Of a stretch of 40,801 bases of DNA, positions 1-14,152 are shown piece by piece. The notes under the pieces are model-generated. The model saw only the letters and a list, made by a program, of their open reading frames with translations. It had not been told where the DNA came from and made no database searches. Each line of letters opens with the position of its first letter. Position 1 is the first letter of the stretch. Origin of the DNA: Chloroflexota bacterium (GTDB lineage: Bacteria; Chloroflexota; Dehalococcoidia; E44-bin15). A program made the translations under genes and the position numbers. The DNA lies in contig DAOUOW010000006.1 of the NCBI GenBank assembly GCA_030626475.1, positions 1-40,801 of the forward strand, read 5' to 3'.

Positions 1-86
1 GGAGAGATAATGCCCCAAAATAGCATGGCAAGGAAGGAGCTGAAAAAGAAGCCGCCAACTGCCGTGGGGATGGCCAAATAACCCAT
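1..86 (-). CDS. Small membrane protein, N-terminal fragment cut by window edge
   Basis: This reading frame is not in the ORF track because it runs off the left edge. An ATG at 86 on the minus strand is preceded by a near-perfect Shine-Dalgarno AAGGAGGT (plus coordinates 92-99) with a 5-nt spacer. The 28 visible codons read MGYLAIPTAVGGFFFSSFLAML and so on: glycine, phenylalanine and leucine rich with no charged residue, so they probably begin a transmembrane segment. It lies 54 nt downstream of the PAC2 gene on the same strand and is probably the last visible member of that operon. Function cannot be assigned. The start is well supported; the identity is unknown. Confidence 0.6.
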   Translation of the reverse strand, partial: MGYLAIPTAVGGFFFSSFLAMLFWGIIS

Positions 87-140
87 TCTCTACCTCCTTT
101 CTCTACAATAATGGCTAATCAAACATCGCGAGGTCAAAAA

Positions 141-1019
141 TTAATTGCCTTTCTCCCACTCCCTTTTGAGGAATCGCTCCACATCGCCCAAGAGCTCCTC
201 GGTGCTGAGCTCAAGCAGCTCTTGAATCCCCTCCTCAGCGCTCGCCTGTTCCAGTTGGTCAAAATAGTCGAGAAGCCTTTTCGCCTCCTCAGCATGTGAC
301 TCCCTGAGCGCCGCGATATTCCTCCCCATTTCCTCTTCCTCCCGCTTCGCCCACTCATCGAGCTCAGCGAGGTCGAGCTCAATACCCAACAACTTAATGA
401 GAACTTCGAGAACGGCTTTAGAGGACTTGGGGTTTGGTATTGGAGTGGTATAGATTGGTATCTCGCCCAGGAGACAAATGCCCTCCATATTCCTTCTCTT
501 GGCAACGCCCAGCAGTAGGCCGTTCAAGCCACTGATGGTGCCGGCAGCCATGGGTGTCACGTCCATCCCTTTAAGCTCTTCGGCTAGCCTGGGCTCGGTG
601 GCCGCCCCCAGGATCTTCGGCCTGCTCGTGTGATAGATATGGCTGGGGGCTGCGGCGAAGGTGTACACCCCTTTAGTCTTGAACCTCTGAGCTACATCCA
701 AGACAAGATTGGCCAATTGATATCCCCTCGCTACGGGCTGAGCCTCGCCGAGGAAGATTATGAGGTCTTTTTCCCCCCCACTTCTCCAAAAATAGAATTT
801 GCTCTCAGGGAATTCTGGCTCTCCCACCACCTGATCGTGAACCGAAACTGCGCCCAGATCGAAGAAGTTGTACGGCTCGATGGTTGCCAGTTCTTCAGCG
901 CCCAATTTATCCCTTAAATATCTGGCGGCTATTATGGCCACCCCCCCCATCCCAGGCCAGGCGGCAATCAGGGATGGATTTCTAAGCTCAGGCTCGCTAT
1001 GAAATGTGATCCCTTCCAT
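141..1019 (-). CDS. PAC2 family protein (proteasome assembly chaperone 2-like), paralogue A
   Basis: 292 aa, matching the PAC2 (former DUF75) fold family. The family includes archaeal and eukaryotic proteasome assembly chaperones and many uncharacterised bacterial proteins. The typical N-terminal stretch is visible (NPSLIAAWPGMGGVAIIAARYL, residues about 14-34), followed by an alternating beta/alpha core and the glycine-rich GTISGLNGLLLG near residue 162. The C-terminal 80 residues are strongly charged and probably helical or coiled (EEEEMGRNIAALRESHAEEAKRL). It shares the core (YLRDKLGA.E, IEPY.FFD, FP.SKFY.W) with the gene just upstream, so the two are paralogues. Its ATG at 1019 lies 15 nt after the upstream stop. 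The bacterial role is unknown; a homo- or heterodimeric scaffold is an inference from family architecture. Confidence 0.85.
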   Translation of the reverse strand: MEGITFHSEPELRNPSLIAAWPGMGGVAIIAARYLRDKLGAEELATIEPYNFFDLGAVSVHDQVVGEPEFPESKFYFWRSGGEKDLIIFLGEAQPVARGYQLANLVLDVAQRFKTKGVYTFAAAPSHIYHTSRPKILGAATEPRLAEELKGMDVTPMAAGTISGLNGLLLGVAKRRNMEGICLLGEIPIYTTPIPNPKSSKAVLEVLIKLLGIELDLAELDEWAKREEEEMGRNIAALRESHAEEAKRLLDYFDQLEQASAEEGIQELLELSTEELLGDVERFLKREWEKGN

Positions 1020-1034
1020 GATACGCCCCCGCTC

Positions 1035-1814
1035 CTATTGCTCCTCCTTAAAGAAGTCGCCGTAATCGATAGTGAAGTCCTCGAGGAAGGCCCAGGAGGC
1101 CTTCTTCACTATTTCGTCCATCTCCTCTTCAGCTTGCTCAATCAACGGGTCGAACTCATCAAGAGCAATCCCGATGCCCAGCATAGTGGTCAAAACCCGG
1201 AGCACAGCCCGACACGATTTGTGATAGGTTCCGGTAGCATAGTGCGGCGCTTCTGACAGCAGGTAGACGCCCTGAAATCCTCTCTCCCGAGCCAGGCTGA
1301 GAACAACGCCATTCATGCTGATAAGGTTTCTCTCCTGGATGGGGATTACCGGATATTGCTCCAGGTATGGCACGAGCTTGGCATCGTTTACCACCCCGAA
1401 GACCCTGGGCTCCGCAGTGTGAGAAACAAGCGAAGGAAAGGCCCAAATGGTATATATCCTGGGCACATGGAATCGCTGCCCAACCTCGAGCAGGAGACTA
1501 GCGTATTCATAGCGTCCCACTTGCGGTTCGTAATCGGCAATAAAAAGGATGAGGTCATCGCCATCGCCATTTTTCCAGTAATAGAACTTGCTCTGGGGGA
1601 ATTCCAGTTCCTCGACCACCCCATTTCCCACTTCAATAGAGGGGTCAAAGAAATCATAGGGCTCGATGTGCCCAAACTCCTGGGCCCCTAGCTTGTCCCT
1701 CAAGTAGGCAACAGCCTCTGTCCCCACATCGCCAATAGAACCCCAGGCCAAAATCAGGCGGGGATTCTTCAACTGCGGCTCTCTATCAATCTTTAGCTGG
1801 GCTCTAGCTGGCAA
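1035..1814 (-). CDS. PAC2 family protein, paralogue B
   Basis: 259 aa, second PAC2-family protein of the operon. The N-terminal motif NPRLILAWGSIGDVGTEAVAYLRDKLGA aligns with paralogue A, as do HIEPYDFFDP and FPQSKFYYWKNGDGDDLILF. Where A has the flexible PGMGG element, this copy has GSIGD, so the two have diverged in the loop that often differs between PAC2 subunits. The start is TTG at 1814, preceded by AGGAGG with a 10-nt spacer; no better in-frame start is visible. The C-terminal tail is acidic but about 35 residues shorter than in paralogue A. It sits between the cupin gene and paralogue A. That the pair form a heterodimer is inference. Confidence 0.82.
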   Translation of the reverse strand: MPARAQLKIDREPQLKNPRLILAWGSIGDVGTEAVAYLRDKLGAQEFGHIEPYDFFDPSIEVGNGVVEELEFPQSKFYYWKNGDGDDLILFIADYEPQVGRYEYASLLLEVGQRFHVPRIYTIWAFPSLVSHTAEPRVFGVVNDAKLVPYLEQYPVIPIQERNLISMNGVVLSLARERGFQGVYLLSEAPHYATGTYHKSCRAVLRVLTTMLGIGIALDEFDPLIEQAEEEMDEIVKKASWAFLEDFTIDYGDFFKEEQ

Positions 1815-1837
1815 GGCTTGTCCACCTCCTCATAAAG

Positions 1838-2182
1838 CTAGTTCTTGCTTATCCTGATCCGATAATTCGGCGGCAGGGCCTGGCCTTCCTTACCCACAGC
1901 CACGCTGACGGTGATAACCCTGAGAGGCGCCCTGCCCTTTGACCTTATGAAATGAACGCTCTTAGGCGGGATGTAAACAATATCGCCCGCCTTTACTTCC
2001 CGTGCTTCCCCGGAAAGGAACATCTCACCCTTGCCTTCAACGATATAATAAGCCTCCTCAATCCCATCATGAGCATGGGGCTTAAATCCCTCCCCCATGT
2101 CGAGCACGGTGTCCCAAATACCCAGCAAGCGAAGCGTGCCATCTTGAGGCCCTATGCCTTGTGCAATATCCCTGATAATCAT
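1838..2182 (-). CDS. Cupin-domain protein
   Basis: 114 aa, a single small cupin beta-barrel. Cupin motif 1 is visible as PHAHDGIEEAYYIVEGKG, with the two metal-binding histidines and the glutamate, and motif 2 as GDIVYIPPKSVHFIRS, with the third histidine. A divalent metal site is therefore expected. Proteins of this size are often isomerases, dioxygenases or ligand sensors; the substrate cannot be read from sequence. It is first in the minus-strand operon with the two PAC2 genes (23 nt to the next start), behind a plausible promoter at 2229-2258. ATG at 2182 has a modest GAGAGGT Shine-Dalgarno. Confidence 0.85.
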   Translation of the reverse strand: MIIRDIAQGIGPQDGTLRLLGIWDTVLDMGEGFKPHAHDGIEEAYYIVEGKGEMFLSGEAREVKAGDIVYIPPKSVHFIRSKGRAPLRVITVSVAVGKEGQALPPNYRIRISKN

Positions 2183-2228
2183 GACCTCTCACCCCTCGTG
2201 CGCCCTTAAGTGTGATTCCCTATGCTCT

Positions 2229-2258
2229 ATTGTAATTTATCATCCAACAAGAAATCAA
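2229..2258 (-). promoter_or_regulatory. Putative sigma-70 promoter of the cupin-PAC2 operon
   Basis: On the minus strand TTGATT (2253-2258) is followed after 18 nt by TACAAT (2229-2234), about 45 nt upstream of the cupin ATG. The match is moderate; no experimental support is implied. Confidence 0.45.
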
Positions 2259-2288
2259 TCGCCCTGTTGTCAAAGGGATTCCAGGGCA

Positions 2289-2316
2289 AGCCTCACCTCA
2301 AGAGGCCGCTTAGGAG
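2289..2316. repeat. 28-bp perfect direct repeat, copy 1
   Basis: The sequence beginning AGCCTCACCTCAAGAGGCCG is repeated without mismatch at 2697-2724. It contains a short inverted repeat, GCCTC-(7 nt)-GAGGC. This copy lies about 80 nt downstream of the small gene's stop codon. Confidence 0.95.
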
Positions 2317-2396
2317 GCGTTAAGGCCCAATGAAGTCAATGCGGAGGACATGGAGCGACAACTGAGCATTGAAGGTTTGCCCACTGGCTTGAGAAA

Positions 2397-2612
2397 TCAA
2401 CGGGTTTCTGAGAGCTGTTGGGCAATTCGCTTGTTATTCTCGTCCAAGACGTCGAGCAATGCTTCAAGCGCAATACTAAGGTGGTGGCCGATAGTTTTCT
2501 CAACCCAATCGTACACATCAGGGGTATGAGGTGGCTCCTGAAGTTCTTTCTGGGTGATCTTCTCATCAAGGAGATTTAGAAGCTCATCATGAGTTAGTCC
2601 AATAGTTTCCAT
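2397..2612 (-). CDS. Small hypothetical protein
   Basis: 71 aa from ATG at 2612 (METIGLTHDELLNLLDEKITQKEL and so on). The ORF track starts three codons earlier at a GTG, but the AGGGGG Shine-Dalgarno is correctly spaced only for the ATG. The protein is acidic and predicted largely helical, with no Cys, signal peptide or membrane segment. The C-terminal half (SIALEALLDVLDENNKRIAQQL) could form an amphipathic or coiled-coil helix suited to dimerisation. A convincing promoter at 2657-2685 supports real expression. I do not recognise a family. The promoter and gene together are bracketed by the 28-bp direct repeats. Confidence 0.6.
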   Translation of the reverse strand: METIGLTHDELLNLLDEKITQKELQEPPHTPDVYDWVEKTIGHHLSIALEALLDVLDENNKRIAQQLSETR

Positions 2613-2656
2613 AGCGGCCACCCCCTAATAAGTGAATGACTCATTACGCAGATGAG

Positions 2657-2685
2657 AGTATAAAACTTTGAGGTGAAGAAGGCAA
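2657..2685 (-). promoter_or_regulatory. Sigma-70-like promoter for the small hypothetical gene
   Basis: On the minus strand TTGCCT (2680-2685), a 17-nt spacer and TATACT (2657-2662) lie about 45 nt upstream of the ATG at 2612. Repeat copy 2 begins 12 nt upstream of the -35 element. Confidence 0.6.
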
Positions 2686-2696
2686 GATGGTCATCG

Positions 2697-2724
2697 AGCC
2701 TCACCTCAAGAGGCCGCTTAGGAG
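2697..2724. repeat. 28-bp perfect direct repeat, copy 2
   Basis: Identical over 28 bp to 2289-2316, offset by 408 bp. It lies just upstream of the promoter of the small minus-strand gene and about 165 nt upstream of the divergent SDR gene. Confidence 0.95.
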
Positions 2725-2889
2725 ATGATAAGCTTATGCCTTCAGGTTGACAAGCACCTAAGTTTGGTGTAGCCTTCTCGCTCGGTAGCCGGGCAAAAAC
2801 TCTGGTTCATTCACAAAGACCAACTGGAGTAGTTTTCAGTCGCTGCCGAAAGGGATGAATATTTACGCATCTCAGTCGAGGAGAGAACT

Positions 2890-3747
2890 ATGAAGGAGTT
2901 CAAAGATAGAGTGGCGGTCATCACTGGCGCTGCCAGTGGCATAGGACGCGGTTTAGCCGAACGCTGTGCCCAAGAGGGCATGAAGGTTGTTCTAGCCGAT
3001 ATTGAGGAGAAAGCGCTAACCGAAACCGAAAAAGAGATGAAAGCGGCAGGAGCATCTGTGCTGGCTGTACTGACCGATGTCTCAAAAGCCAGCGATATCG
3101 AAGCGCTAGCCCGGAAGACACTCGATGCCTTTGGGGCGGTACACCTCCTGTGCAACAATGCCGGCGTCGGTCCGGGTGCCGCCTACATCTGGGAACGGAC
3201 CGTAGCTGACTGGAAATGGGTCATGGGGGTAAATCTATGGGGCGTTATTCATGGCGTTCGGGTTTTTGTCCCCATCATGCTTGAGCAAGATACTGAGTGT
3301 CACATTGTCAACACAGCCTCTGTAGGGGGGTTGATATCTAGTCCACATCTGGGGGTGTACAAGGTGACCAAGCATGGCGTAGTAACCCTCTCCGAGACGC
3401 TATACCATGAACTGGCACAGAGCGGTGCCAAAATCAATGTCTCTGTTCTGTGTCCGGCGTATGTCAACACTCAAATTATGGACGCAGAGCGAAATCGTCC
3501 CGCCGAGCTACAGAATGACCCCGCTGTGGAGAAGAAGGTGAATCCCGAAGGCCAGGCCGTACACCAAGCTATGCGCGAAGCTGTGCAGGCAGCAATGTCT
3601 CCCCAGCAGGTAGCCGATCGTGTCTTCAACGCCATCAGGGAGGAAAAGTTCTATATCTTCACCGACCCTGAGTGGAAACCCGTGATGCAAATGCGGATGG
3701 AAGACATTCTCCAAGAGCGCAATCCAACAAATCCACTGCCATTTTAG
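2890..3747 (+). CDS. Short-chain dehydrogenase/reductase (SDR family)
   Basis: 285 aa, a classical SDR with a Rossmann fold for NAD(P)(H)-dependent alcohol/ketone oxidoreduction. The cofactor motif TGAASGIG is at residues about 12-19, NNAG near 89-92, the catalytic Ser in NTASVGG and the catalytic pair in YKVTK (YxxxK). An acidic residue in VVLADIEE after the second strand suggests preference for NAD(H). The C-terminal region (PQQVADRVFNAIREEKFYIFTDPEWKPVMQMRMEDI) resembles SDRs annotated for hydrophobic or steroid-like substrates, but the substrate is not determinable. ATG at 2890 follows GAGGAGAG. It appears monocistronic, divergent from the small hypothetical gene. Confidence 0.9.
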   Translation: MKEFKDRVAVITGAASGIGRGLAERCAQEGMKVVLADIEEKALTETEKEMKAAGASVLAVLTDVSKASDIEALARKTLDAFGAVHLLCNNAGVGPGAAYIWERTVADWKWVMGVNLWGVIHGVRVFVPIMLEQDTECHIVNTASVGGLISSPHLGVYKVTKHGVVTLSETLYHELAQSGAKINVSVLCPAYVNTQIMDAERNRPAELQNDPAVEKKVNPEGQAVHQAMREAVQAAMSPQQVADRVFNAIREEKFYIFTDPEWKPVMQMRMEDILQERNPTNPLPF

Positions 3748-3824
3748 GCCCTCAATGTTCCAGCCCACAGCTTGACAAGCAGCAGAGCTCAGCTAAACTG
3801 GCTCGAAGATACCACGCCTCTAAC

Positions 3825-3853
3825 TTGACAAGCTTGTAATCTTTCTGTATAGT
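3825..3853 (+). promoter_or_regulatory. Strong sigma-70 promoter for the duplicated-domain lipoprotein
   Basis: TTGACA (3825-3830), an exact 17-nt spacer and TATAGT (3848-3853). Transcription should start near 3860, leaving a leader of about 140 nt before ATG 4003. A second weaker candidate, TTGACA-N16-TAAACT, lies at 3772-3799; both -35 boxes sit in the same decamer CTTGACAAGC. Confidence 0.7.
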
Positions 3854-3912
3854 GTCCGCACACGAAGACCGATTACGACTCCAATAGTTCACACCTAATC
3901 ATCGTGGAATGT

Positions 3913-3988
3913 TCCCTCTTAGAGGGACCCTCGTGCCGGGTGTTTGACCCGCCTCGAAAGACGTTCGTTGGCCCAAGTGCTGGCGACG
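3913..3988 (+). promoter_or_regulatory. Structured 5' leader with three consecutive hairpins
   Basis: Three inverted repeats follow the promoter: TCCCTC-TTA-GAGGGA (3913-3927), CGGGT-GTTTG-ACCCG (3937-3951), and a bulged stem CGTTG.CC/GGCGACG (3966-3988) that ends right against the Shine-Dalgarno AAAGGAG (3989-3995). No known riboswitch consensus was recognised. A role in translation control of the lipoprotein gene is inference. Confidence 0.4.
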
Positions 3989-4002
3989 AAAGGAGATGAC
4001 GG

Positions 4003-5028
4003 ATGAAAGCCAAGAAACTCATTGTATTGACTCTCTGCGCCATCCTGCTGGGGTCAACGTTCGCCTGTGGCAGTGGCGGCGGCGAGGGCGAAGAATACTT
4101 GCTCTACACTGACGAAGACAACAGATTCTCCATCTTGTATCCCGAGGACTGGGTCAAATACCCAGAGGAACTATTGGAGGAGTTCGTTCTCGTTTCTTTT
4201 TGGTCCACCTCACTTTGCGGAGAGGAAGGACCAAGCTTTCGGGTTAGGACAGACGAGGTGCCTCCCGCTACCAGTATTCAGACATTTTTTGAAGCAGTGA
4301 AGCGCGCGCTGGGGGATTGGCCGGAATACACACCGATATCTGAAGAGGAACTGAGCGTCGGCGGCAGACCGGCAATTAAACATGTGTACACCTACGTTGC
4401 ACAAGCGGGAACCATAAGCGTAATGCTACTTATCTTAGTGGAAGGCACCACAGGCTGGAGTATATTCTGCTTCAGCCCATCCGCCTGCTGGAGCCAATAC
4501 GAGTCCAGCTTCGACAAGATAGTGGACAGTTTCCAGCTTCTACAGCAAGTAACTCCCACACCGACCCCGATGTCATACTCGATCTACACAGACGAGGACA
4601 ACGGCTTCTCCATCTCCTATCCAGAGGAGTGGGACATACTGCCAGAGGAACTGTGGGGCCCACTCCTCGTCCGTATTCAGGCTCCTTCATCTTGCGCAGG
4701 CGACATCCCATGCTTCAATGTGCTGAACGTGGCGCTACACTATCCTATGAGTGTTCAGACATTCAATGAAGCAAACACTCGACAGTTGTCGGCAAATGTA
4801 CCGGGATACACACTTATATCTGAAGAGGAACTCACCGTGGGCGGCAGGCCGGCTATCAAGCATGTGTATACCGATTTCTTTGAAGAGGAAAGCGGCATTA
4901 CAATGCAAGTTAGCCTGGTGGAGGGCACAAAGGCGTGGGTAATCAGCTGTTTCAGCGTGCCCGTCTGCTGGAGCCAATATGAATCCATCTTTGACACGAT
5001 AGCCGCCAGCTTTCAACTCCTGGAGTAG
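4003..5028 (+). CDS. Secreted lipoprotein with a tandemly duplicated domain
   Basis: 341 aa. The N-terminus is a lipoprotein signal (MKAKKLIVLTLCAILLGSTFAC) with lipobox STFAC, so export and lipidation at the Cys are expected. Two homologous domains of about 150 residues follow. Each starts YTDEDN.FSI.YPE.W and ends CWSQYES.FD.I..SFQLL, and they are joined by a short TPTPTP linker. Both contain SEEEL.VGGRPAIKHVYT and a pair of Cys near the C-terminus. The opening YTDEDNGFSISYPE.W resembles the PsbP-like/DUF1795 fold seen in many bacterial lipoproteins; this is an inference from pattern. The duplication is still evident in DNA (for example tctgctggagccaata in both). Function unknown, probably cell-surface. 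Confidence 0.8.
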   Translation: MKAKKLIVLTLCAILLGSTFACGSGGGEGEEYLLYTDEDNRFSILYPEDWVKYPEELLEEFVLVSFWSTSLCGEEGPSFRVRTDEVPPATSIQTFFEAVKRALGDWPEYTPISEEELSVGGRPAIKHVYTYVAQAGTISVMLLILVEGTTGWSIFCFSPSACWSQYESSFDKIVDSFQLLQQVTPTPTPMSYSIYTDEDNGFSISYPEEWDILPEELWGPLLVRIQAPSSCAGDIPCFNVLNVALHYPMSVQTFNEANTRQLSANVPGYTLISEEELTVGGRPAIKHVYTDFFEEESGITMQVSLVEGTKAWVISCFSVPVCWSQYESIFDTIAASFQLLE

Positions 5029-5051
5029 CGCTGCGGCGAGAGGAAGTTTTG

Positions 5052-12194: not shown

Positions 12195-12220
12195 CAGGCC
12201 AATATCCCCACCATCCATTG

Positions 12221-12249
12221 TTGCATCTGAGCTTGCCGCGGAGTAAAAT
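12221..12249 (+). promoter_or_regulatory. Promoter of propeller lipoprotein 1, possibly giving a leaderless transcript
   Basis: TTGCAT (12221-12226), 17-nt spacer, TAAAAT (12244-12249). A start 7-8 nt after the -10 box would coincide with the ATG at 12257, where no convincing Shine-Dalgarno is seen. Confidence 0.45.
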
Positions 12250-12256
12250 AGGCCCA

Positions 12257-13225
12257 ATGAGGCGCGCTCTACTTCTTCTGCTCATCATCGTGGTCCTCGC
12301 TACTCCCTTCTCTGGCTGTGGTAGAGAGGGATCGCCTACGCCCACCCCTACCCCAAGCCCCTCACCAACACCTTCGCCCACCGCTGAGCCCACCCTCACC
12401 TTCAACGTCGGCGATGGTCCGCGGGGCATCTGCTTCGATGGGGAAAATATCTGGGTGGCTAACAGTCATGAGGGCACCGTGACCAAGCTCAGGGCCAGCG
12501 ATGGCGAGATCCTGGGCACCTTCGATGTCGATGAGGGTTCCCGTCGCCTGTGCTTCGATGGGGAGAATATCTGGGTGGCAAACTATGAGGGCGACAGCGC
12601 GAGCAAGCTCAGGGCCAGCGATGGTGAGGTCCTGGCTACCTTTCACATGGGCACCCGTCCCCGTGGTATCTGCTTCGATGGGACCTCCATCTGGGTGACA
12701 AGCCACGGAGGTTGTTCGGTAACCAAGCTCAGGCCCAGCGATGGCCAAGTCCTGGGCCGCTTCCTCGTCGGCCGTTATCCCCAGGGCGTTTGCTTCGATG
12801 GGGAAAACATCTGGGTGGCGAATGTCGGCGGCCTCAGCGTGACCAAGCTAAGACCCAGCGATGGTGAGGTCTTGGGCACCTTCGATGTCGGCAAAAGCCC
12901 CAGGTTCCTCACCTTTGACGGGGAAAATATCTGGGTCACAGACACCGATAGCGGCAGTGTATTCAAGCTCAGGGCTAGTGATGGCGAAATCCTGGGCAAC
13001 TTTAGCGGCGGCAAAGCTCCGTATGACATCTGCTTTGATGGGGAAAATATCTGGGTGTCAGACCTCAGTCAGCATTATGTGCACAAGCTCAGCACCAGCG
13101 ATGGCGAAATCCTAGAAAGTTACGAAGTCGGCGGTGCTCCTTTTGGCATCTGCTGCGATGGAGAAAATATCTGGGCGACTAACTATGTCTATGACACCAT
13201 CACCAAGCTATATCCTGAAAGGTAG
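12257..13225 (+). CDS. Lipoprotein with seven 40-aa beta-propeller repeats, copy 1
   Basis: 322 aa from ATG 12257; the 13 extra residues in the ORF track lie across the promoter. A signal peptide (MRRALLLLLIIVVLATPFSGC) ends in lipobox FSGC, followed by a 25-residue Pro/Thr/Ser linker. The rest is seven repeats of 40 residues with consensus F.VG..P.GICFDGENIWVAN....TVTKLRASDGEILGT. This is the pattern of a seven-bladed propeller of the NHL/YVTN/Vgb-like type, and the repeat number fits one closed ring. Most repeats carry a Cys before FDG (the fifth has Thr). Probably an extracellular binding scaffold or sensor; no catalytic motif is seen. Its paralogue starts 9 nt after its stop. Confidence 0.85.
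   Translation: MRRALLLLLIIVVLATPFSGCGREGSPTPTPTPSPSPTPSPTAEPTLTFNVGDGPRGICFDGENIWVANSHEGTVTKLRASDGEILGTFDVDEGSRRLCFDGENIWVANYEGDSASKLRASDGEVLATFHMGTRPRGICFDGTSIWVTSHGGCSVTKLRPSDGQVLGRFLVGRYPQGVCFDGENIWVANVGGLSVTKLRPSDGEVLGTFDVGKSPRFLTFDGENIWVTDTDSGSVFKLRASDGEILGNFSGGKAPYDICFDGENIWVSDLSQHYVHKLSTSDGEILESYEVGGAPFGICCDGENIWATNYVYDTITKLYPER
12401..13225 (+). repeat. Seven in-frame 120-bp coding repeats, propeller gene 1
   Basis: The units begin at TTCAACGTCG (12401) and recur every 120 bp. The core tgcttcgatggggaaaatat is almost unchanged at DNA level in most units, which indicates recent expansion or gene conversion. Confidence 0.85.
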
Positions 13226-13234
13226 TTTGGTAAC

Positions 13235-14152
13235 ATGAGGTTAGCTTTATACTTTTTGCTGGCGATGGTGGTCCTCCTTATCTTCCTCTCTGGGTGCGCC
13301 ACTTCTCAGCCTCAAGTCCAAAACTTCAGCGCTGGGGACGGGCCTTGGGGTATCTGCTTCGATGGGGAGAATATCTGGGCGGCTAACTATTGGAGCGACA
13401 CCGTAACCAAGATTAGCGCCAGCGATGGCCAAATTCTGGATAGCATCAGCGTGGGCAGAGCTCCCCGTGAAGTCTGCTTCGATGGGGAAAACATCTGGGT
13501 GTCGAAGCACCTGACCGATACCGTGACCAAGCTCAGAGCCAGTGATGGCGAGATCCTGGGCACCTTCGATGTCGGTCATTACCCCGGGTGTATCTGCTTC
13601 GATGGGGAGAATATTTGGGTGGTAAACCACGGAGACAACAACGTGGCCAAGCTTAGAGCCAGCGATGGTGAGGTCTTGGGCACCTTCGATGTCGGCAGTG
13701 CACCCGAGGGCATATACTGCGATGGGCAATACATCTGGGTGGCAAATTGTGCCGATGACACCATCATCAAGCTGAGGCCCACCGATGGCGAAATCCTGGC
13801 CACCTTTAACCTGGGCAAATATACTTCCCCGTTTAAACTCTGCTTTGACGACGAAAACAATATCTGGGTAACAAACGCTGGCAGGGACACCGTGACCAAG
13901 CTCAGGGCCAGCGATGGCGAGATCCTGGGCATCTTTGCCGTGGGCGATGCCCCCCATGGCGTCTGCTTTGATGGAGAGAATATCTGGGTGGTAAATGACT
14001 GGAGCGATGACGTGACCAAGCTCAGGGCCAGCGATGGCCTGGTCCTAGACACCTTCGCAGTCGAAGATTATCCCCAGAGTGTATGCTTTGATGGGCAATA
14101 CATCTGGGTGACAAATGCCTGGGGCGACAGCGTAGCCAAGATTCACCCCTGA
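13235..14152 (+). CDS. Lipoprotein with seven beta-propeller repeats, copy 2
   Basis: 305 aa paralogue of the preceding gene. The signal peptide MRLALYFLLAMVVLLIFLSGC has lipobox LSGC; the linker to the propeller is only about 9 residues (ATSQPQVQN), much shorter than in copy 1. Seven repeats of about 40 residues follow, again FDGENIWV.N....TVTKLRASDGEILGT; the fifth unit has a two-residue insertion (CFDDENNIWV) and the fourth reads IYCDGQYIW. It begins 9 nt after copy 1 and is presumably co-transcribed. Cell-surface location is inferred from the lipobox; ligand unknown. A virginiamycin-B-lyase-like fold is possible, but no lyase residues could be identified. Confidence 0.85.
   Translation: MRLALYFLLAMVVLLIFLSGCATSQPQVQNFSAGDGPWGICFDGENIWAANYWSDTVTKISASDGQILDSISVGRAPREVCFDGENIWVSKHLTDTVTKLRASDGEILGTFDVGHYPGCICFDGENIWVVNHGDNNVAKLRASDGEVLGTFDVGSAPEGIYCDGQYIWVANCADDTIIKLRPTDGEILATFNLGKYTSPFKLCFDDENNIWVTNAGRDTVTKLRASDGEILGIFAVGDAPHGVCFDGENIWVVNDWSDDVTKLRASDGLVLDTFAVEDYPQSVCFDGQYIWVTNAWGDSVAKIHP
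13325..14149 (+). repeat. Seven in-frame coding repeats, propeller gene 2
   Basis: These are 120-bp units (the fifth 126 bp) homologous to the array in the preceding gene. The same DNA cores (gaccaagctcagggccagcgatgg and variants) occur in both genes. Confidence 0.82.

Follow-up and report, generated by a model that had tools for sequence, protein, structure and literature searches.

The entry of small orphan genes without mobility functions of their own into chromosomes is poorly documented, and one such gene raises the question here: by what route did a 71-aa ORF, together with its promoter, come to lie between two identical 28-bp sequences beside a cupin gene? The window (the whole 40,801-nt stretch analyzed, i.e., the whole contig C37) belonged to genome G000, a 1.12-Mb assembly of 60 contigs that was about 68% complete and was derived from a Chloroflexota bacterium, a metagenome-only organism; G001 was the only congeneric genome compared. 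The preliminary description of this DNA had proposed either a small insertion cassette or a self-regulated gene with paired sites.

Repeat pair and enclosed promoter-gene unit

A repeat search of the window confirmed the perfect 28-bp direct repeat AGCCTCACCTCAAGAGGCCGCTTAGGAG (Table 1), which displayed a start-to-start distance of 408, extended to 36 nt at 92% identity (33/36), and contained the GCCTC/GAGGC dyad already described, now located at 2290-2294/2302-2306. At ≤3 mismatches, the 28-mer was found at two places only in the window and at none in 100 shuffles, so chance was excluded as the origin of the pair; as searched with its 26-bp core, it was confined to those two places in the G000 assembly and was absent at ≤3 mismatches from 14 family/order genomes, and it was thus not the generic dispersed repeat considered earlier. 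Also rejected were (i) an integron cassette, because no attC core RYYYAAC/GTTRRRY was present on either repeat strand, and (ii) a XerCD pdif module, because the two strands gave 4/28 and 3/28 matches to the E. coli dif, from which that of the host may differ.

Table 1. Coordinates of the features at the cupin locus of the window
Feature	Position	Strand	Basis or comparison
Cupin gene, conserved anchor beside the left repeat	1838..2182	-	91% aa identity in G001
Left repeat copy, the conserved one	2289..2316 (to 2324 extended)		~107 bp upstream of the cupin gene start; orthologous to G001 L008 8122-8153
Stretch of 72 bp between left repeat and unit 3' end	2317..2388		No relative detected among the compared loci or in 60 relatives
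Promoter-gene unit, 301 bp	2389..2689	-	83%-identical counterpart behind gltA in G001 (L007 3984-4277)
Gene for 71-aa acidic protein, predicted helical (with stop)	2397..2612	-	No Pfam match; one homolog, 76% identical
Predicted promoter TTGCCT-N17-TATACT	2657..2685	-	Sequence; G001 counterpart TTGCCT-N17-TATATT
Seven bases from unit to right repeat	2690..2696		Sequence; putative illegitimate junction at 2696/2697 from comparison with G001
Right repeat copy, probably displaced cupin-upstream sequence (scar)	2697..2724 (36 bp at 92%, to 2732)		Repeat search and comparison with G001
Right-hand neighbors: SDR gene (2890-3747) and PsbP-like lipoprotein gene (4003-5028)	2725..5051		Absent at the G001 locus

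The promoter, the SD, and the minus-strand ORF reported between the repeats were all recovered in the sequence, in the minus-strand order TTGCCT (2685-2680), N17, TATACT (2662-2657), AGGGGG (2626-2621), ATG (2612), and stop codon (2399-2397). The encoded protein was acidic, as described (15 D/E versus 6 K/R), and its helical nature was borne out by a model of moderate confidence, which predicted two helices, H8-25 and H31-70 (mean pLDDT 81.5 and pTM 0.48, from a two-sequence alignment). Besides the lack of a Pfam family, a PDB fold search with this model gave no convincing match (best E 2.5), relatives in 197 class genomes plus genome, viral, phage, and plasmid collections were limited to G001, and Rfam returned no match in the window. 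Between G000 and G001, the ORF displayed a dN/dS of ~0.84 with 17 aa changes, where random mutation would give 18, and neither copy contained a stop (chance probability 0.39); constraint is thus not demonstrated, and the ORF may be a gene that evolves fast or is only weakly selected.

Two further repeat structures were observed in G000: (i) a 99-bp exact repeat in contig C11 (L025 14736-14834 and 15473-15571), which reached the contig end and was probably an assembly k-mer artefact, suggesting that the assembly k-mer was far above 28; and (ii) the palindromic GATGCTGAAACAAGTTCAGCATGACAA in contig C20 (L034 486-2427), which occurred with several exact repeats and looked like a REP-type dispersed repeat.

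Reciprocal sites at the cupin and gltA loci

The comparison of loci with and without the unit, as the preliminary description had suggested, was made with G001, which kept a single repeat where the unit was absent. G001 C37 aligned with window positions 6-2319 and then again from 5071, and on the cupin side of the G000 insert, collinearity with G001 extended for 2.3 kb and reached the repeat. The G001 cupin locus harbored one repeat copy, about 77-81% identical and at the same position as the left copy, and lacked the unit, the right copy, the SDR gene, and the PsbP-like gene; an unrelated 83-aa gene lay where G000 had the latter two. Since G001 had a single repeat and no unit at this locus, the unit beside the cupin gene is, on this comparison, an insertion. 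The empty site was that of another species with other changes in between and was not a strain-level one for G000; a strain with the cupin gene, a single repeat, and then directly ATGATAAGCTTATG... would represent the resident state before insertion. Three different sequences (the unit side, the SDR side, and that in G001) took over from the repeat at nearly the same position (2316-2319).

Several side features were observed in the right-hand part of the locus and beyond it. A promoter-like sequence, CAGGTTGACAAGCA..., flanked the SDR gene on both sides (window 2733-2779 and 3762-3793) and had a counterpart in G001 (L009 9777-9823) that was contiguous with a lipoprotein-gene leader; this pair is possibly a second scar, judging from a 16/19 match reached in about 1 in 1000 shuffles. 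The leader of the PsbP-like lipoprotein gene (window 3883-4003) was shared with another lipoprotein/transport gene (L009 9855-10077), matched in part the reverse strand of L007 4980-5019, and contained a short hairpin-like GAGGGA/TCCCTC stretch with no Rfam match. The PsbP-like gene itself (window 4003-5028) displayed an internal duplication with 480-bp spacing and 71-85% identity, and window 12218-14152 held two adjacent ORFs built of 120-bp (40-aa) repeats that were 60-80% alike and propeller-like by period.

The single counterpart of the unit in G001 was located on contig C217 behind gltA. It began at the -35 box, ran to the eighth base after the stop codon (301 bp at 83% identity), and lay between two gltA 3'-end copies of about 108 bp, c1 (3818-3925) and c2 (4287-4391), which were 92.6% identical; a second small gene (gene2, 85 aa) and a third gltA 3'-end copy followed. 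The promoter spacing was 17 bp in both genomes, and the TTGCCT-N17-TATA boxes recurred at the G001 locus, so the promoter moves with the gene. Each genome contained one copy of the unit, and both unit edges were tight: of the four sides, three lay 0-10 bp away from the 301-bp minimum. G000 gltA had a single 3' end with gene2 directly after it and no unit. The gltA-side anchor of G001 was collinear with G000 gltA, and the G001 block from c2 to gene2 was collinear with the native gltA end-to-gene2 block of G000 (83% over 576 bp), so c2 would be the resident gltA end, and c1 (with its own terminator) plus the unit would be the arrival. At the G001 joint, the donor proxy GTGGGCAAACC, the product GTGGTCAAGCCC, and the recipient proxy CCAAGCCC had CAA/CC letters in common, a hint of microhomology; no crossover was visible in windowed gltA divergence.

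By this sequence comparison, each genome provides the empty site that corresponds to the insertion in the other: the unit at G001 gltA had no 28-mer, and the G001 cupin locus had the 28-mer counterpart without the gene. One promoter-gene unit occupied a different locus in each of the two sister species; the site filled in one was empty in the other, and a truncated copy of the neighboring sequence stood at each filled site. Because the unit at gltA was bracketed by gltA copies instead, the repeat is local chromosomal sequence and does not belong to the unit. Of the cassette proposal, insertion of the unit and travel of the promoter with the gene were upheld, whereas the 28-bp repeat as a cassette end was discarded, the G001 unit being without it. 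The other proposal, a self-regulated gene with paired operators, drew on the two identical 28-bp copies, each with an internal dyad, on either side of a gene, but in G001 the two elements occurred apart, the site at the cupin locus and the gene at gltA; together with a chance repeat and an assembly repeat, the latter opposed by the apparent k-mer far above 28, it is extremely unlikely.

Non-autonomous MITE-like transposition with target-site duplication would agree with the nearly constant extent of the unit at its two loci and with the presence of duplicated targets and empty sites. It was nevertheless largely refuted by the same comparison and is very unlikely: (i) the duplications measured 28-36 bp at one locus and about 108 bp at the other for one unit, i.e., there was no fixed target-site length; (ii) no terminal inverted repeats were found, the end-to-end alignment score of the unit equaling the shuffled mean; (iii) there was one unit copy per genome; and (iv) c1 and c2 differed by ~7% and had different downstream sequences.

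As to age, dS between G000 and G001 was 0.159 for the unit gene and 0.154 for the cupin gene. The two versions of the unit would thus have parted about when the species did, and the match gives no sign of recent transposition between the two copies. The two 28-mers of the window were identical and the G001 counterpart was ~20% different, so the duplication appears younger than the species split; the same identity suggests that the insertion at the cupin locus was more recent and that its donor was close kin of G000.

Gene-end copies in the purB-purC gap and in the class

Comparable duplications were found in the purB-purC gap, with truncated purB/purC ends in 5/10 family genomes, and this gap was an insertion hot spot of small genes. 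In G001 (contig C17, L051 1474-4541), the order was purB|NTase|purB3'|ORF|purC5'|lipoprotein|purC5'|ExoD|purC5'|purC: four inserts (a nucleotidyltransferase-like gene, a 212-aa ORF, a lipoprotein gene, and an ExoD-family gene) were separated by one purB 3'-end copy and three purC 5'-end copies of 45-87 bp. The purC copies all began at ATG and had variable ends, and the purB copy ended at the stop codon. The same gap held purB-end or purC-end copies in G002, G005, G007, and G009 as well (loci L152, L153, L154, and L157, L152 being that of G005 and L157 that of G007). The purC scar behind the ExoD gene was common to G001 and another genus (G005 L064/L152) and was therefore not an assembly artefact; with other scars being imperfect, this also counts against an assembly origin of the repeats. 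In this gap, G007 also encoded 19 residues (L157 4420-4476) that were identical to the end of the G001 nucleotidyltransferase. Elsewhere, L051 11996-14372 displayed a junction duplication without an added gene, between two adjacent genes (5' end of the second gene at 13300-13337 and 3' end of the first gene at 13453-13593).

Strict same-strand gene-end copies outside genes were then counted by simple ORF calls in 140-400 kb sampled per genome. In G001, 9/9 fell where predicted, i.e., downstream for 3' copies and upstream for 5' copies, these nine not all being independent events. The strict right-side copies per 100 kb numbered 4.9 in G001, 1.6 and 1.1 in the class controls G041 and G043, 0.8 in G000, 0.3 in G004, and 0 in the closed control genome G027 (400 kb). 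The class controls carried wrong-side copies too, and G001 had none on the same strand. The idea that scars were special to this lineage was dropped because G041 and G043 also had them; such scars are widespread in the class, and G001 is simply rich in them.

Island-type site-specific integration, in which a recombinase encoded elsewhere would place small circles into fixed attachment sites and the repeats would be attL/attR, would produce the same geometry (the carried gene end restores the gene, and the old end is displaced); tyrosine recombinases were encoded in all genomes tested, including G000 and G001, and the edge of the cupin homology was nearly constant in three contexts. It is still unlikely, since repeat sequence and length tracked the locus (28-36 bp at cupin, about 108 bp at gltA, and 45-87 bp at purB/purC), the purB 3' end and the purC 5' end were both used in one gap, no recombinase was found by Pfam in the inserts examined, and recombinase counts were no higher than in G027. 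An island of the Dehalococcoides ssrA type was likewise rejected, the repeats here being cupin-upstream, gltA, purB, and purC sequence and the inserts examined having no recombinase by Pfam.

Local tandem duplication or template switching in one lineage, with the block of repeat and unit doubled and one copy decayed without any import, would also be expected to give direct repeats, and nonsynonymous scar differences were many (31/82). This is quite unlikely, because the unit was single with no tandem pair and had a homolog elsewhere in G001, and unrelated genes lay between successive gltA and purC copies. The ratio of synonymous to nonsynonymous scar differences, 51:31 (82 in total), is a weak test, since in-place duplication beside a native gene that keeps evolving would yield a similar mix.

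Putative displacement by one-sided recombination and known systems

What has to be explained comprises the repeat, the unit, the empty site, a second locus with a different local duplicate, and several comparable scars. The repeat pair is, on balance, probably the displacement scar of one-sided homologous recombination, i.e., homology-facilitated illegitimate recombination or single-crossover integration of a circle. In the direction of events that we infer, a fragment with cupin-upstream sequence plus the promoter-gene unit would have arrived from a donor that was presumably a close relative; the cupin side would have been joined by homologous recombination and the other side by a putatively illegitimate joint that would fall near 2696/2697, slightly within the cupin-upstream sequence of the resident, so that the resident 28-36 bp remnant would have been displaced to the right of the new gene, with the 71-aa protein carried as accessory cargo. 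A variant with the same geometry would be single-crossover integration of a circle carrying cupin-upstream homology; the linear one-sided and circle versions give the same picture here and cannot be told apart.

One homologous plus one non-homologous joint would account for a repeat that is local sequence, for its varying length, and for old gene ends that are displaced and not lost, and purC and purB copies with one natural and one variable edge are as expected if homology ends naturally on one side and the joint is random on the other. ComEC was found in G000 and in relatives, which makes DNA uptake possible; the presence of ComEC and of tyrosine recombinases decides neither way, because the recombinases were also encoded in the scar-free control. 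Against displacement by one-sided recombination, (i) the near-constant repeat edge (2316-2319) is not predicted by a random illegitimate joint, as it would be by a preferred site; (ii) illegitimate joining leaves the tight unit edges unexplained; and (iii) the 51:31 synonymous bias is compatible with duplication in place followed by divergence. The first two of these keep a site-specific process alive at lower probability. A dedicated, previously undescribed process that inserts single small promoter-gene units beside conserved genes in these Chloroflexota, each time duplicating a variable neighboring stretch, is decidedly improbable; if it did exist, the tight unit edges and the near-constant cupin edge would reflect it, and the scars would be a readable record of gene-by-gene acquisition.

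Gene uptake by imprecise recombination is known but seldom documented in bacteria. The mechanism has precedents, and the value of the present locus is that of a clear testable case outside toxin loci, not that of a new kind of element. The scars are mechanically searchable and could serve to order gene-acquisition events and to trace donors, e.g., in the purB-purC gap.

Among the precedents, sequential displacement by homology-facilitated illegitimate recombination was proposed for the T6SS effector/immunity arrays of Vibrio cholerae (Kirchberger et al. 2017, PMC5361080), which resemble the loci described here in their one-sided homology anchor, in a non-homologous opposite joint (a putative one here), in the displacement of gene ends, and in the build-up of small genes in arrays; the mechanism is proposed in both, here from sequence. 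Those arrays are toxin/immunity clusters under selection, whereas the scars here lay at the housekeeping loci gltA, purB-purC, and cupin with assorted small-gene cargo. A similar process was proposed for displacement of Rhs C-terminal tips (Jackson et al. 2009, PMC2935791), but Rhs genes are large and polymorphic with highly identical cores, and the homology here was 28-150 bp of a neighboring gene end or non-coding flank. The Dehalococcoides ssrA genomic islands (McMurdie et al. 2011, PMC3146451) belong to the same phylum and likewise display tandem inserts parted by copies of the 3' end of a gene; they carry a serine recombinase module and a 20-bp ssrA repeat that is always the same, whereas the repeat differed per locus here and no recombinase was found in the insert. 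Dimorphic small variable segments, which have been ascribed to homology-assisted illegitimate recombination (PMC2884548), likewise consist of short non-mobile stretches that strains exchange at a shared position; they were described within species from complete genomes, whereas the present exchange would have occurred across species, with the displaced remnant as its marker.
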